Shown: piece by piece, positions 52,623-58,900 of the stretch
Numbering within the stretch: position 1 is the stretch's first letter
Layout: every line of letters starts with the position of its first letter
Assembly: GCA_028819005.1 (NCBI GenBank)
Contig: JAPPMP010000042.1
Span: 1-64,000, forward strand
Direction: 5' to 3'
DNA: 64,000 bases
DNA from: Acidimicrobiaceae bacterium
GTDB lineage: Bacteria > Actinomycetota > Acidimicrobiia > Acidimicrobiales > Aldehydirespiratoraceae
The notes under the pieces: model-generated
Told to the model about the DNA's origin: nothing
Seen by the model: the letters and a program-made list of their open reading frames with translations, nothing else
The model's database searches: none
Position numbers and translations under genes: made by a program

Positions 52623-53851
52623 CGAACCAGGCGGACCGGGAGGTGTTTCAGGGAGTTGTTGAGGTTCGACTGCTGGCGTCTCGGCTCGCCGGTCAACTCG
52701 ATGTGTGACCAGCGTTTGAGGACCTCGTCGAAGAAGACTCGACCCTCGAGGCGCGCCAGGTGAACTCCAAGGCAGAAATGGGTGCCGAAGCCGAAGGAGA
52801 GATGATGGTTGGGGTCTCGGGTGATGTCGAACGCCTGCGGGTTCTCGAACACCGCCTCGTCGCGGTTGGCGGACGTGTAGATCATCGCGACCTTGTCGCC
52901 CGCGGCAATTGACTTGCCGCCGAGTTCGGTGTCGACAAGCGCTGTGCGCCGGAAATAGTGCAGAGGGTTGGCCCATCGCAAGATCTCCTCGACTGCCTTG
53001 GCTGTCAGTGCCCTGTCGTCGCGCAGGAGTTGCAACTGCTCGGGATGTTGCAGCAGTGCGAGCAGACCGCTCGACAACATTGTGCGGGTGGTGTCGTTGC
53101 CTGCGGTGACCAACTGCACGAAGAAACGACCGAAGTCGACGTCGGTCATCAACTTGCCGTCGAACTCCGTTCCCAGAAGCAGGTCGGTCAGATCACCCTG
53201 CAATGGTTCGTTCCGACGTTTGGCTGCGAACGCCATGGCGTACATGGCCATGTCGATGCTCGATGAGCCGCGTTCCTCTGCGGCGGCTATATCGGGGTCC
53301 TGACCGCCGCTGTTGCGTTCGGCCATGGCGTGGATCTCGGGCCAATCCTCTTGTGGCAACCCCATGAGTTCGCCGACGACCTGGCTGGGCAGATGGGCGC
53401 AAACGTCGTGGACGAACTCGACCTCGCGACCCTCTGCTTGTTCAGCCAGAACCTCGGCGCGGTCGAGGATCTCTATTGTGATGGTGCGGATTCGCTCTTC
53501 CATAGCGCCGATCACCCGGGCTTTGAACTCTGGAGAGATGGGTCGTCGGTAGGCGGTGTGACGAGGCGGATCCATGGCCAACAACATGTCCCGCATCTGC
53601 GCGAGACCGGGCGGGTCCAGGTTCTCGATCACCACTCCGCCCTCGTGGGCTGAGAAGATCTCAGGGTGTTTGGCGACGTGCATCACATCGGCGTGCCGCA
53701 GCACCGCCCAGTAGCCGGGCTCGTCCTCCATCTCTTGAAAAACCACAGGTTCCTCACGGCGCAGACGCGTGAAAAGGTCGTGCGGCGGCGCGTCGACGTA
53801 TGTTTCCGGCCGGTGCAGCGCCAGTTGATCTGGGTTCGCGTCGATGCTCAC
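52619..53851 (-). CDS. Cytochrome P450
   Basis: This 410-residue P450 has 'TAGNDTT' (249-255), ExxR in 'EEILR' and the heme loop 'FGFGTHFCLG' with Cys360. The pattern 'EPGYWAVLRHADV' and 'DPPRHTAYRR' places it with the same actinobacterial class as the other three, but it is the most diverged. No ferredoxin is next to it, so it may share the one at 6496. Confidence 0.9.
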   Translation of the reverse strand: MSIDANPDQLALHRPETYVDAPPHDLFTRLRREEPVVFQEMEDEPGYWAVLRHADVMHVAKHPEIFSAHEGGVVIENLDPPGLAQMRDMLLAMDPPRHTAYRRPISPEFKARVIGAMEERIRTITIEILDRAEVLAEQAEGREVEFVHDVCAHLPSQVVGELMGLPQEDWPEIHAMAERNSGGQDPDIAAAEERGSSSIDMAMYAMAFAAKRRNEPLQGDLTDLLLGTEFDGKLMTDVDFGRFFVQLVTAGNDTTRTMLSSGLLALLQHPEQLQLLRDDRALTAKAVEEILRWANPLHYFRRTALVDTELGGKSIAAGDKVAMIYTSANRDEAVFENPQAFDITRDPNHHLSFGFGTHFCLGVHLARLEGRVFFDEVLKRWSHIELTGEPRRQQSNLNNSLKHLPVRLVR

Positions 53852-53954
53852 ACCGACAACTTATCGCGGCCCTTCGTTGGAGAATGGGCATCGGTGCTCG
53901 TACCCTCAACAGTCGGTCCAGGTCAATGCGTCGTCGACCGGAGAGGAGCCCGCA

Positions 53955-54227
53955 ATGGCAACCGGACGATCCAGTTTTGCGAAACGGCAGCGTGACATGG
54001 CCAAGAAGGCCAAGGCACAGGCCAAGAGGGAGAAGCGTCTCGACAAGAGCGAGTATGGCGACGACTCTGACAGCGAAGTAGTCGACGACGACGTCCCCGC
54101 GTTGTCGAACGATGATGTGATGGCTCGTATCGAGGATCTGCACCGCCGCTACGACGACGGTCAGATGGATCTCGACACTTTCGATGAACAGCGGGCCGCG
54201 TTGATGGCCCAGATTTCTGTCGACTGA
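53955..54227 (+). CDS. Small highly charged protein
   Basis: This 90-residue protein has a basic N-terminal half (alternating Lys/Arg/Ala, 'AKKAKAQAKREKRLDKSE') and an acidic middle ('DDSDSEVVDDDVP'), ending in a helix ('NDDVMARIEDLHRRYDDGQMDLDTFDEQRAAL'). GGAGAGGAG precedes the ATG at 53955; the ORF track start at 53844 is too early. I do not recognise a family. The basic tail suggests nucleic-acid or ribosome contact. Confidence 0.7.
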   Translation: MATGRSSFAKRQRDMAKKAKAQAKREKRLDKSEYGDDSDSEVVDDDVPALSNDDVMARIEDLHRRYDDGQMDLDTFDEQRAALMAQISVD

Positions 54228-54325
54228 CTCAGTACCGCAGGCCGGACCCGCAGATCGAGCGGTTTTGACTGTCGGAGAGGCAGTTGGTCTCGCTGCCTGA
54301 TGGCATGCACTTGAACGCACGGGTT

Positions 54326-54649
54326 CTAGATGCCTTGGATCGCCCCTACGATCAAGACAATGAAGAGCAGTGGGACCGTCCAGCGGTTGTGTTTGCCCCA
54401 TGTTGGCCGGGGAGGCATAGCACGGTGCCTGATTCGATATATCGCCAGATCACCGAGCACCCAGACCACGTAAAGCCCCAGCGATATGGCGTTCCGCAGA
54501 GGGGACTGGGTCAGGGCTATCCAAGCCCACGCCAGCAAGGGCAAACCGAAGAGGTAGTCCGAGGTCAGAACATCGACAGAAAGCAGCCGTGGTCTTTGGT
54601 CTACCGGCTCGGTCTGTGTGGCTTCTTCGGTTGATTCTGTTTGTGTCAT
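54326..54649 (-). CDS. 107-residue membrane protein, copy A
   Basis: This is one of three paralogues of exactly 107 residues. Three hydrophobic segments are visible ('YLFGLPLLAWAWIAL', 'NAISLGLYVVWVLGDLAIY', 'RWTVPLLFIVLIVGAIQGI') with the conserved loop 'MPPRPTWGKHNRWTVP' between the last two. I do not recognise the family. The minus frame is the one intact in all three copies; the plus-strand frames have a stop in copy C. It lies downstream of a remnant of the FN3-like ORF (54779-54817). Confidence 0.65.
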   Translation of the reverse strand: MTQTESTEEATQTEPVDQRPRLLSVDVLTSDYLFGLPLLAWAWIALTQSPLRNAISLGLYVVWVLGDLAIYRIRHRAMPPRPTWGKHNRWTVPLLFIVLIVGAIQGI

Positions 54650-54778
54650 TAGATTGTCATCCTAACTGCCAGCCTGGTTCGGCGCAGACCGGTCGGTTTG
54701 CGGGCGTGGTGTTCGTGTGAGCGCTTGTGTCAACGGTGAGTCGTCTGACGGGCATCGGCTCGACTTTCCTAGCCGCCG

Positions 54779-54817
54779 GGGCAGTCGGTGCGGGCCCATA
54801 TCCAGCAGGGGAAGGTC
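54779..54817 (-). pseudogene. Remnant of the FN3-like ORF 3' end
   Basis: CTAGCCGCCGGGGCAGTCGG and the following bases match the 3' end of the ORF at 55284, reading 'TDCPGG' and stop on the minus strand. The rest of the ORF is missing here. It shows that copy A of the module was once complete. Confidence 0.6.
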
Positions 54818-54835
54818 CCTACCCAACCGGGATGT

Positions 54836-55159
54836 CTAGATGCCTTGGATCGCCCTTACGATGAAGACGGTAAAGAGCAGCGGGACTGTCCAGCGGTTGT
54901 GTTTGCCCCATGTTGGCCGGGGAGGCATAGTACGGTGTCTGATTCCATATATCGCCAGATCGCCAAGTATCCCGACCACGTAACCCCCCAGCGATATGGC
55001 GTTCGACAGGGGGGAGTGAGTCGCTGTTATCCAAGCCCACACCAACAGGGGCAAACCAAAGAAGAAGTCCGAGGCCAAAGCTTCAATAAAGAACAGACGC
55101 GGCCTTTCGTCTGTCGGCCCGGTCTGTGCGGGTACTTCGGTCGTATCCGTATGTGTCAT
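54836..55159 (-). CDS. 107-residue membrane protein, copy B
   Basis: This second paralogue has the same length, the same three hydrophobic segments and the same 'MPPRPTWGKHNRWTVPLLF' loop as copy A. Substitutions concentrate in the N-terminal tail and the first segment. It follows the FN3-like ORF at 55284 by 124 bases. Confidence 0.65.
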   Translation of the reverse strand: MTHTDTTEVPAQTGPTDERPRLFFIEALASDFFFGLPLLVWAWITATHSPLSNAISLGGYVVGILGDLAIYGIRHRTMPPRPTWGKHNRWTVPLLFTVFIVRAIQGI

Positions 55160-55283
55160 TTGATTGTCATCCTAACTGCCCTCCTGGGTTTGCGCAGACC
55201 GGTCGGTTTGCGGGTGTGGTGTTCGTGTTGGTTGGGCGTTTGTGTCATCGGTGAGTCGTCTGACGGGCATCGGCTCGGCTTTC

Positions 55284-55529
55284 CTAGCCGCCGGGGCAGT
55301 CGGCGTAGGTCCATACCCAGCCGGAGTGTTTAGACGCTCCCACCGAGGAGACCAGCACGAGGTTGCTTGAGCGCGAGACGGTTTTTGACACTGAGTAGCT
55401 CCCCGGTACCTGGGGAATCGGGTTGTCTGCTGGAATCGACCCCCAGGAACCACCCAGGTAGTACCGGTAAGACTCGATGGGTGTCGGTGAAGTTTTTTCG
55501 GGGAGCTTGGTGTGTATGTGTACCGGCAT
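55284..55529 (-). CDS. FN3-like small ORF, copy B
   Basis: This 81-residue frame reads 'SPTPIESYRYYLGGSWGSIPADNPIPQVPGSYSVSKTV' and ends 'SGWVWTYADCPGG', which resembles the last strands of a fibronectin type III or similar beta-sandwich domain. It is about 80% identical to the ORF at 57823. It has no signal peptide or clear ribosome site, so it is probably the separated 3' part of a longer, broken gene. Confidence 0.4.
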   Translation of the reverse strand: MPVHIHTKLPEKTSPTPIESYRYYLGGSWGSIPADNPIPQVPGSYSVSKTVSRSSNLVLVSSVGASKHSGWVWTYADCPGG

Positions 55530-55716
55530 CGGTTTCTGCCGCCGCTGCCACGGTTGAGCCCTGTGCTCTTCGCGCTGGTAGCCTCGTGGCTTTCATGACG
55601 GTACGAGCTTGGCCAATCCTGTCCTAACCTTCCGAAGCCTCTCGGCCTTCCGTTCAGTTCTTTTTCAAGCGCTGGTTCGCGCCACTCTCCGGCACTCCGA
55701 GTTGCTGCAACCAGAG
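55476..55716. repeat. 241-bp near-identical block, copy 1
   Basis: This block matches 58015-58255 over 241 bases with only two differences by eye (an A/G in GTRCCGGC and an A/G near the end). The neighbouring paralogous DNA on the module side is clearly more diverged. It begins near GATGGGTGTCGG and ends at CCAGAG. Each copy lies at the 5' end of its FN3-like ORF on the minus strand. Confidence 0.9.
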
Positions 55717-55960
55717 GTTGATAAGCCCAGTGATTCTCGTTGTTGTTGAACTTGTAGTCTTTGCTGACACACGTGTAGGGGCCTGATCGTTGCGATGCCA
55801 GCGGACCTCGTAACGTGTCGTGCTAGGCGCATGAAACGGCCGTTCCCAAGAGATCTCAATAACAGAATCACCAGAACTCACCAACAAATTGCGGGGTTCT
55901 CGTTTCGGGACTGCAACAGGTGTAGCGCTCGCTTCGACGTACGCGCTTTTCCGGCTTTTC
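55654..55960 (-). pseudogene. Truncated fibronectin type III domain gene
   Basis: The C-terminal 90 residues of the ORF at 55654-56295 read 'PRNLLVSSGDSVIEISWERPFHAPSTTRYEVRWHR' and 'TTTRITGL', a good FN3 domain. Upstream the frame turns into low-complexity Thr/Pro text antisense to the ISL3-like element, so the true 5' part has been replaced. It is a broken surface or secreted protein gene. The end point near 55960 is approximate. Confidence 0.6.
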
Positions 55961-56016
55961 GCGAATGAGGTTGGAGTAGGGGTTTGTGGGGTGTCCGCGG
56001 TTGGGTGGGTGGGGTC

Positions 56017-57372
56017 CTCCGGAGTCGGGGTTGTGATCACGCCTGAGCCTGGAGGAACCCCTGTGGGACGTGACCCTATGCGTATGTGTGAGTTGTTGGC
56101 AGGTCTCGGCGAGGTCGACGTGTTGGGCGTCGACCACGGTGTGGGCGGCGAGCCGTTGATGTTGCATGTGCGTTGCCGGGCGCCGCGGCCGTTGTGTGCA
56201 GGGTGCGGGGGAGGGTTGTGGTCCGACGGCGGCCGGGCGGTGGTGCTGGTGGATCTGCCGGTGTTCGGCCGGCCGGTGAGGTTGGTGTGGCGCAAAGGTC
56301 GATGGAGACGCCCCGACAGAGGCTGCGGGACGGGCTCGGTGACACAGCAGAACCCTCAGATCGCGCCGCGGCGGGCGTTGTTGACGACGCGGGCCGCGAG
56401 GTGGGCGACCCGTCAAGTCGGTCGGGGTCGCCCTGTCGGCGATGCCGCAGCAGAGTTGGGGTGTTGCCGGTCAGCGGCGAGCCAATCGGTTCTGGTGTGG
56501 GGTCAAGGGTTGCTCGACGCTGATGTAGAACGGATCGGCGCAACGAACGCGGCAGGTCTTGACGAGACGCTGTTTTGCCGTGGGGGCCGTTATAGACGCA
56601 AAGAGTGGCGCGCCAGCATCGTTGACGCGTCCGGGGGCAGGTTGTTGGACGTCGCTGCCGGCAGAACCGCTAAAGCGCCCGCGCAGTGGCTGCTTGATCA
56701 ACCACAACACTGGCGTGATGGCGTTCGATGGGCCGCTTTGGACCTGTCCGGGCCGTATCGGGCGGCGCTGGACACTGTGCTGCCGCACGCAGCTCAAGTC
56801 GCGGATCCGTTCCATGTGATCAGGCTCGCCGACAACACGCTTGACGACGCTGAGGCGCCGGGCGCAGAACCAGACTCTGAGACATCGGGGCCGCGAAGGC
56901 GGCCCCCTGTATCGCAGTCGGAAACTGCTGTTGTGCGCCCACGAAACCGTCAACGCTGCCGCCGAGACGAAACTGCTCAGCCTGTTGGAGGCCGGCGACC
57001 CCCGCGGGGAGGCCCGCGACGCCTGGCACGCCAAAGAGACCCTGCGCGGGATCTACGACATCTCAGACCCCGAACTCGGCAAGATCACCGTCGATCAGCT
57101 CGCTGACGAGTTCTGCGACCCCTGCCTTCCCAAAGAAGTCAACCGGCTAAGACGCACCCTGGCCCGTTGGCGCACCCAAATCTCGAACTGGCACCACGCC
57201 CGGGTCGCCAACGCCGCCACCGAAACCGCTGACAACCCGATCAAACGAGTCAAACGCGCCGCCTTCGAGTGAACCGACTTCAACAACCACCGGACCAGAG
57301 CACTCCTATACGCCGCCAAACCCAACTGGAACCTGCTCAACACCCTCACCCCGACCCAAAACGCGAAGACCC
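56017..57372 (+). mobile_element. Decayed ISL3-like insertion sequence
   Basis: The element is defined by a degenerate ISL3-family transposase, interrupts the FN3 module and truncates the FN3 gene. A possible left end GGGGTCCTCC near 56017 resembles the inverted right end (GGGGTCTTCG read from 57372 inward). The boundaries are tentative, and I could not find a convincing 8-bp target duplication. Confidence 0.6.
56078..57360 (+). pseudogene. ISL3-family transposase, frameshifted with premature stop
   Basis: Translation from ATG 56078 gives a Cys-rich zinc-finger-like N-terminus ('VRCRAPRPLCAGCGG') and DDE-domain text 'AGLDETLFCRGGRYRRKEW', 'ALDLSGPYRAAL' and 'VADPFHVIRLADNTLDD'. Near 56845 the frame breaks: the rest ('LRRRAQNQTLRHRGREGG', 'PLYRSRKLLLCAHE') continues in another frame to 'NPIKRVKRAAFE', where a TGA at 57270 interrupts before 'TDFNNHRTRALLYAAKPNWN'. 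At least two lesions make it non-functional. Confidence 0.85.
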
Positions 57373-57375
57373 CCT

Positions 57376-57699
57376 TTAGATGCCTTGGATCGCTCGGATG
57401 GTCAAGACGAGGAAATACAGCGGGACGGTCCAACGGCTATGCCTGCCCCATGCTGGCCGGGGAGGCATAGCGTGGTGTCTTATTCGATATATCGCTAGAT
57501 CGCCGATTACCCAAACTGCGTAAGCTCCAAGCGCCAGAGCACTCCAGACTGGAGCGGTGTTTGCTGCTATCCAAACCCAAACCAGCAGAGACAGGCCGGA
57601 GAGGTAGTCCACAGTCAATGCATCCACAGAGTACAGCCGTGGTCTTTGGTCTACCGGCTCGGTCTGTTTGGCCGCGTCGGTTGATTCTGTTTGTGCCAT
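57376..57699 (-). CDS. 107-residue membrane protein, copy C
   Basis: This third paralogue has the loop 'MPPRPAWGRHSRWTVPLYF' and ends 'TIRAIQGI'. It is the most diverged in the middle segment ('APVWSALALGAYAVWVIGD') but keeps length and topology. Retention of an open minus frame in all three copies suggests a real protein under some selection. It lies immediately past the right end of the ISL3-like element. Confidence 0.65.
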   Translation of the reverse strand: MAQTESTDAAKQTEPVDQRPRLYSVDALTVDYLSGLSLLVWVWIAANTAPVWSALALGAYAVWVIGDLAIYRIRHHAMPPRPAWGRHSRWTVPLYFLVLTIRAIQGI

Positions 57700-57822
57700 T
57701 AGGTTGTCATCCTAACTGCCGTCCTGGTTCGGCGCAGACCGGTCGGCATGCGGGTGTGATGTTTGTGTCGAATGGGCGTTTGTGTCAGTGGTGAGTCGCC
57801 TACGGGCATCGGCTCGACTTCT

Positions 57823-58068
57823 CTAGCTGCCGGTGCAGTCGGCGCGAGTCCATGCCCAGCCGGAGCGTCGAGACGCTCCCTGAGAGGAGACCAGCACGAG
57901 CGTGTTCGAGCGCGGGACGGTTTTTGACACTGTGTAGCTCCCCGGTACCTGGGGAATCGGGTTGTCCGCTGGAACCGATCCCCAGACGCCGCCTATGTAG
58001 TACCGGTAAGACTTGATGGGTGTCGGTGAAGTTTTTTCGGGGAGCTTGGTGTGTATGTGTGCCGGCAT
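57823..58068 (-). CDS. FN3-like small ORF, copy C
   Basis: This 81-residue paralogue of the ORF at 55284 has 'SYRYYIGGVWGSVPADNPIPQVPGSYTVSKTV' and ends 'SGWAWTRADCTGS'. Conservation of the frame and of hydrophobic positions favours a former or present coding function. No export signal is seen. The upstream 241-bp block may contain its promoter. Confidence 0.4.
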   Translation of the reverse strand: MPAHIHTKLPEKTSPTPIKSYRYYIGGVWGSVPADNPIPQVPGSYTVSKTVPRSNTLVLVSSQGASRRSGWAWTRADCTGS

Positions 58069-58255
58069 CGGTTTCTGCCGCCGCTGCCACGGTTGAGCCC
58101 TGTGCTCTTCGCGCTGGTAGCCTCGTGGCTTTCATGACGGTACGAGCTTGGCCAATCCTGTCCTAACCTTCCGAAGCCTCTCGGCCTTCCGTTCAGTTCT
58201 TTTTCAAGCGCTGGTTCGCGCCACTCTCCGGCACTCCGAGTTGCTGCGACCAGAG
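58015..58255. repeat. 241-bp near-identical block, copy 2
   Basis: This is the second copy of the block at 55476-55716. It lies between the FN3-like ORF and the 3' end of the EngB gene. Its high identity compared with the flanking module suggests recent gene conversion or a separate mobile unit. Confidence 0.9.
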
Positions 58256-58300
58256 ACAGCCACAGCAGTCGTGTGGTGTTCCTGCAAGCGCGGAAGCCAA

Positions 58301-58900
58301 CTAGCCGCGAATCCCGAGAAGGTCGCTGATGCGGGTGCGCAGCTCGGCGATGCCGGTGCCCTTGTTGGCGCTGACCCAGGTGATTTCGGACTTGTCGACC
58401 CCGAGTTTTTGAGCCAGGTCGATTCGGCGCCTTTTGGATTTGGCGGGCCGGACCTTGTCCGCTTTGGTCGCGACGAAACAGATTTGACGGTTGAGATGCT
58501 CAAGCCACTGGCAGGTTTGCAAGTCGAGAGCGGTGGGCCCGACCTCGGAATCAATGAGCAGCAGGACCGAGACGAGGTTCTCCCGTTCTTCGATGTAGGT
58601 GTTGAGCATCTCAGCCCATCTCTGCTGTTCGGTCTTGGACACCTTCGCGAAGCCGTAGCCGGGCAGGTCCATCAGCCAACGCCCCGAATCTGAGGCCCCG
58701 ACTTCAAAGGCGTTCAACAGCCGGGTCGCGCCCGGCGACTTCGATGTCCTGGCGAGGGATTTTCGTTGTGCCAGTGCGTTGATCAGTGACGACTTTCCGA
58801 CATTGCTGCGACCCACCAAAGCGATTTCTGCATGCACATGCGGAAGATCGGCCGCCCGCGTGTACGAGCGCAGGAAACGCATGGGGAGTGGGCCTGCCAT
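58301..58900 (-). CDS. engB: Ribosome biogenesis GTPase EngB (YihA/YsxC)
   Basis: This 199-residue GTPase has G1 'GRSNVGKSS', G3 'DLPGYGFAKV', G4 'TKADK' and G5 'SANKGTGI', in order and spacing normal for EngB, which assists large-subunit assembly. It is the one clear housekeeping gene near the repeat module and lies upstream of that module on the same strand. Confidence 0.95.
   Translation of the reverse strand: MAGPLPMRFLRSYTRAADLPHVHAEIALVGRSNVGKSSLINALAQRKSLARTSKSPGATRLLNAFEVGASDSGRWLMDLPGYGFAKVSKTEQQRWAEMLNTYIEERENLVSVLLLIDSEVGPTALDLQTCQWLEHLNRQICFVATKADKVRPAKSKRRRIDLAQKLGVDKSEITWVSANKGTGIAELRTRISDLLGIRG

Follow-up and report, generated by a model that had tools for sequence, protein, structure and literature searches.

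Three copies of a genus-restricted small membrane protein, M107, kept beside remnants of a secreted FN3 protein in an Acidimicrobiaceae genome

The stretch of DNA analysed here (the window) comprises 64,000 nucleotides of an Acidimicrobiaceae bacterium (assembly GCA_028819005.1, contig JAPPMP010000042.1, positions 1 to 64,000). Near its end, three open reading frames (ORFs) of 107 residues, all on the minus strand, encode predicted small membrane proteins, designated M107 (Table 1). An earlier note, made from the sequence alone, had described three membrane proteins of identical length with a conserved loop, and this description was borne out by the present analysis. Copies 2 and 3 share 70-72% protein identity with copy 1 (83% and 75%, respectively, at the DNA level) and the loop PPRPxWGxHxRWTVP is kept by all three. 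Six genomes of the genus were compared (own labels are used for genomes and loci, the genome of the window being G000), and nine intact copies of M107 are known, spread over three of these genomes. In these nine copies the residues P79, P80, P82, W84, G85, H87, R89, W90, T91, V92 and P93 are invariant, no stop and no frameshift occurs, and the only indels are two small in-frame insertions, both in the same copy. Besides the three copies of the window, G000 contains a fourth intact gene (C14) and a remnant (C12). The most divergent member of the family (L030, 11395-11736, minus strand, locus G003:C46) has 113 residues, with a five-residue insertion inside the conserved loop. At locus G003:C10 an IS256-like sequence (L032, 342-760) lies at the 3' end of M107 and, by reading, apparently alters its last residues.

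Nothing matching M107 was found in Pfam, NCBIfam, PHROGs, PADLOC or the PDB, the latter offering no homologue of solved structure, and no copy turned up among viral contigs or plasmids; the idea of plasmid cargo was rejected on the latter ground. The profile search called for by the earlier note yielded no relative beyond the three congeneric genomes: of the 395 genomes of the class, the other 392 gave none. Two weak matches, in G140 and G162, were considered as distant homologues and rejected: neither was recovered by the class-wide profile search (the evenly drawn sample of the class may lack both genomes), and the G162 region reads as an oxidoreductase-type gene. From these comparisons, M107 is a previously undescribed family of predicted small membrane proteins, restricted to one genus. 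Related Acidimicrobiaceae metagenome-assembled genomes are presumably of sponge origin, to judge by their names. The phage-exclusion role proposed earlier was not corroborated: PADLOC and PHROGs gave no match, viral contigs contained no copy, and the neighbourhood of the block showed no defence genes. The AlphaFold model of M107 places helices at residues 23-47, 50-77 and 91-105; its mean pLDDT (predicted local distance difference test) is 57, a low confidence that made it unsuitable for a fold search. The conserved loop, located between helices 2 and 3, is strongly basic and thus probably cytoplasmic, which suggests a topology with both the N-terminus and the loop inside. The surface role formerly suggested would therefore fit the secreted FN3 partner described below, but not M107 itself.

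Concerning selection, the ratios of replacement to silent substitution rates (dN/dS) between M107 copies range from 0.22 to 0.71 and are not near 1. They lie between 0.26 and 0.51 within the window and between 0.22 and 0.38 when copies 1 and 3 are compared with their closest partners from other genomes, for a silent divergence of 0.3-0.75 between the window copies. The changes private to each copy, counted on columns picked for conservation and hence rough, indicate constraint for copy 3 (4 replacement and 5 silent changes, p=0.008), for G003:C46a (0 and 4) and for G003:C10 (5 and 4, p=0.03), and no detectable constraint for copy 2 (9 and 2). Under neutral drift of 0.1-0.25 substitutions per site, the probability that eight independent copies all stay free of stops is about 1e-4 to 1e-9. 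The sequences thus support selection on M107, clear for copy 3 and relaxed for copy 2; together with the near absence of indels in the nine copies and the conserved 5' spacer, this agrees with the earlier proposal that repeated retention reflects selection.

This spacer, of about 150 nt, is present in all eight copies with readable upstream DNA and is closed by the sequence AGTTAGGATGACA, invariant just ahead of the ATG of M107. Its identity between copies is of 69-90% (10-31% difference) and silent sites differ by 22-54%; the spacer appears constrained because it mostly differs less than the silent sites. A promoter may lie in it, given the TAGGAT nine bases ahead of the ATG, or else a ribosome site. 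No consensus promoter was detected in it by a simple sigma-70 scan and no credible match was obtained in Rfam. A structured RNA was also considered for the spacer and discarded, the covariation term being unfavourable with a double change at one pair only.

The ORFs alternating with M107 had been called FN3-like. A module formed by M107 and an FN3 protein very probably existed in the ancestor but does not exist in the window, where the two 81-aa ORFs (55284-55529 and 57823-58068) are 5'-truncated tails: they match only the C-terminal tail of a 340-aa protein of G003. The Pfam scan of 55284-55529 gave no fn3 match; 57823-58068 is its 81%-identical homologue and was not scanned. Between copies 2 and 3 the dN/dS of the tail is 0.82, against 0.36 for M107. 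The window tails are, from their sequences, remnants evolving near-neutrally and not genes. The fragment at 55717-55947 is the sole real FN3 sequence in the block. One copy had been said to lack its FN3 part; in copy 1, all that remains of the tail is approximately its final ten codons.

In the units of copies 2 and 3, both tails abut, at the same base, a segment of 224 nt. On the plus strand, each segment includes the end of one further small membrane-protein gene (77 aa in G003); the first contains its final ~21 codons plus the 3' flank, and positions 55492-55554 share 90% protein identity with the G003 protein. The 81-aa ORFs are therefore fusion remnants, in which the FN3-protein tail is joined to the 3' end of another membrane gene. 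Only 2 of the 224 bases differ between the two segments, whereas the flanking DNA is 71-86% identical; this points to homogenisation of parts of the array by recombination and suggests recent gene conversion.

Table 1. Coordinates of the features described in the window.
Feature	Position	Strand	Remarks
M107 copy 1	54326-54649	-	Intact, 107 aa, about three predicted helices; same locus as G003:C10
M107 copy 2	54836-55159	-	Intact ORF; constraint looks relaxed
M107 copy 3	57376-57699	-	Intact; sister of G003:C46a, 99% support
Conserved 5' spacer, copy 1	54650-54799	-	About 150 nt; its start overlaps the final codons of the lost FN3-protein tail
Conserved 5' spacer, copy 2	55160-55314	-	
Conserved 5' spacer, copy 3	57700-57854	-	
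Truncated C-terminal tail of FN3 protein, copy 2 unit	55284-55492	-	Pseudogene remnant, homologous to the end of L030:8981-10003
Truncated C-terminal tail of FN3 protein, copy 3 unit	57823-58031	-	
FN3 domain fragment	55717-55947	-	89% DNA identity to L030:9710-9940, inside a gene with two Pfam fn3 domains
224-nt shared segment, first	55493-55716		Matches L031:2098-2290
224-nt shared segment, second	58032-58255		Beside the GTPase gene
Inserted block	54228-58300		Between the stop of a 127-aa gene (53844-54227, +) and the stop of an EngB-type GTPase gene (58301-58900, -)
Decayed ISL3-family insertion sequence	55952-57370	+	Frameshifted transposase; homologous copy C39 covers 55952-57352

Among the genomes compared, only the sister genome G003 retains the secreted partner of M107 intact. 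At G003:C36, a 1018-aa protein with four fn3 stretches (L031:3937-6993, plus strand; PF00041, 3.6e-46) is followed 163 nt downstream by M107. At G003:C46, the 340-aa protein (L030:8981-10003), with two fn3 domains (1.6e-19), ends just upstream of M107, and at G001:C16 M107 likewise stands behind an FN3 gene. An FN3-protein tail lies upstream of nearly every M107 copy, and the homology between M107 loci does not extend past the stop codon of M107. In G000, four M107 genes are intact and an intact FN3 gene with matching tails is lacking. Taken together, the loci indicate that M107 was very probably the ancestral neighbour of the secreted FN3 protein whose remnants lie in the window. The layout of this partner comprises a signal peptide, YNYE/TRVRV repeats, FN3 domains, a Thr-rich linker and a short C-terminal tail. 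A family of secreted proteins that combine tandem repeats of the YNYE..TRVRVAPF type with long Thr runs is encoded at L006 9367-11940 (minus strand), L031 3937-6993 (plus), L053 1903-3765 (plus) and L054 3869-5404 (minus), and the repeat part was unrecognised in a Pfam scan. A 'CPxG' core domain common to the secreted proteins was sought and not retained, only those of C64 and C28 being related and the others not significant.

Concerning the history of the array, in G001, G002 and G004 the 127-aa gene directly neighbours the GTPase gene, with few bases between them and without the block, so that the block was inserted between these convergent genes, or lost in those genomes. G003 shares the insertion, broken there by contig ends and an insertion sequence. 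Such orthologous loci in a sister genome, the comparison asked for in the earlier note, argue against random decaying DNA. In the tree, copy 3 groups with G003:C46a (99%) and copy 2 weakly with G001:C16; copy 1 is linked to G003:C10 by its shared locus. As the window copies group with copies of other genomes, the array does not appear to be a simple local duplication, and a simple tandem origin of the three copies is not favoured by the tree. In Vibrio immunity arrays, same-genome copies are likewise not closest relatives, which was used to argue for displacement over duplication, and the M107 pattern matches this published model (PMC5361080). The element that had been thought to break one of the copies does belong to the ISL3 family and lies between copies 2 and 3, but is itself broken by a frameshift. 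Like other members of the family it encodes the transposase domain PF01610 (DDE_Tnp_ISL3), detected in two ORFs (3.1e-16 and 6.5e-16; profile positions 2-96 and 95-228); unlike them it is frameshifted, with an in-frame stop at about 57271, and shows no clear matching target duplication around it (the last two points judged by eye).

M107 is not the only small membrane protein associated with a large secreted one. At G003:C28 (L073 5288-8738), about 110 nt separate the gene of a 504-aa secreted repeat protein from a gene of the small membrane family M90 behind it; a truncated second secreted copy and a doubled M90 come next. M90 was found in G003 only, where it goes with one tail type; it is also present at C64 and at C9 (at C9 the stretch read shows no secreted gene) and has a conserved leader of its own. 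At G000:C14, an 857-aa secreted FN3 protein overlaps by ATGA an 85-aa two-helix protein (L006 9113-9370, minus strand) for which no relative was found in the genus, and an old tail plus an orphan M107 lie behind this pair. Profile comparison of M107, M90, the 77-aa and the 85-aa families revealed no detectable relation. On sequence grounds, at least two unrelated families of small membrane proteins are thus paired with large surface proteins.

We tentatively read the window as an orphan array of partner genes, in which M107 would be a membrane immunity-like protein retained without its secreted partner. In the ancestor, M107, with about three helices in the inner membrane, would have been encoded just downstream of a large secreted FN3 protein. 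Recombination and insertion sequences would then have repeatedly inserted, swapped or truncated the secreted gene, M107 being retained three times with its own 5' spacer, which probably includes a promoter. M107 would contact the secreted protein and protect the cell against its C-terminal part, whether this protein comes from the cell itself, from kin or from neighbours, and this would account for the retention of M107 in the absence of its partner. The arrangement is that of an orphan immunity array, in which small genes persist in tandem alongside the truncated 3' ends of a large gene, and has a parallel at G003:C28. Moreover, immunity to pore-forming bacterial toxins is almost always conferred by polytopic membrane proteins (PMC12744356).

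Several observations weigh against an immunity function. The retention of M107 is not absolute: at G000:C12 (L007 4957-5191) an FN3-protein tail is fused to what is left of M107, its final ~20 codons, and as this locus is orthologous to the intact G001:C16 locus, loss of M107 also occurs. M107 follows two different-looking tails, a SYRYYIGG type and a GCRLWVLWE type (C36, C16), contrary to a strict effector-immunity pair. The secreted protein of G003:C21 has no small membrane gene found downstream. No known toxin domain was found in the secreted proteins with Pfam, NCBIfam and PHROGs, in which an undescribed domain would go unlisted. Finally, the numbers of silent sites per copy are small, and the comparison covers only six genomes of the genus. 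The immunity reading is kept tentative because of the missing toxin domain and the two tails.

The main alternative, itself somewhat unlikely, is that M107 is a partner for membrane assembly, anchoring or export that handles the secreted tail without any toxin, the extra copies serving proteins encoded elsewhere. The short conserved tails behind a Thr-rich linker are what an attachment end would look like, more than one tail type behind M107 is easier to reconcile with a general partner than with an antidote, and FN3 and Thr-rich proteins suit a surface role; fn3 domains are also enriched in sponge microbiomes (PMC9531527). However, with four M107 genes and no matching intact tail an anchor in G000 would lack a client, although the copies there appear constrained, and neither a sortase-like motif nor any other anchoring motif was recognised. 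It is unlikely that M107 acts independently, as a small membrane protein under its own promoter (a modulator of stress or transport, for instance), close to FN3 genes as a by-product of shared mobile DNA: the conserved spacer of its own in eight readable copies, the persistence of M107 after loss of the FN3 gene and the end of inter-locus homology at its stop would be explained, but not the FN3 tail upstream of nearly every copy nor the same partnership in an unrelated membrane family. Last, a block of decaying mobile DNA whose three ORFs survive merely as recent copies would account for the broken FN3 parts and insertion sequence, the relaxed copy 2, the deleted locus and the three congeners without the block, but is very improbable and already disfavoured by copies that are old in silent divergence, all open and low in dN/dS in the window and across genomes (copies 1 and 3).

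If the antidote reading of M107 is true, the family points to a contact or surface competition system of uncultured, probably sponge-associated actinobacteria that family libraries have missed; even if not, a genus-restricted pairing of a large surface protein with a small membrane protein is defined. A wider proposal, which we regard as rather improbable, is an undescribed polymorphic effector-immunity class in a lineage of Acidimicrobiaceae. The C-terminal ends of secreted surface proteins with YNYE repeats, FN3 domains and Thr-rich parts would be exchangeable, every such protein having an unrelated small membrane protein of its own for immunity (M107, M90, the 85-aa and perhaps the 77-aa protein), and orphan arrays would arise by displacement.

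In comparison with known systems, the known delivery or trafficking parts of type VI secretion, type VII secretion (LXG), contact-dependent inhibition and Rhs systems were not found in the secreted proteins, whose only matches were to fn3, to low-complexity sequence and, across the FN3 part, to phage tail-fibre J; for lack of a known delivery part, M107 is not filed under the polymorphic toxin systems. ExiCD versus EsxX and Tsi5 versus Tse5 (PMC12744356) share with M107 a polytopic membrane protein encoded beside a large secreted protein; no glycine-zipper toxin and no LXG or Rhs delivery part was recognised here. A close parallel in organisation is given by the orphan immunity arrays of type VI secretion/Rhs loci in Vibrio cholerae (PMC5361080), where small intact tandem genes also stand behind truncated 3' ends of a large gene, copies are kin to those of other genomes, and recombination insertion and transposon disruption occur. 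Unlike in these arrays, the present loci yielded no type VI machinery, no VgrG or Rhs protein and no known toxin domain; the large protein, with its FN3 and Thr-rich parts, seems to be Sec-secreted, and the small proteins are new membrane families. With the FN3 repeat proteins of sponge-associated bacteria (PMC9531527), the partner of M107 has in common four Pfam fn3 stretches and a secreted-looking N-terminus; that literature reports the enrichment of the domain, and the present loci add the paired small membrane gene and its arrays.

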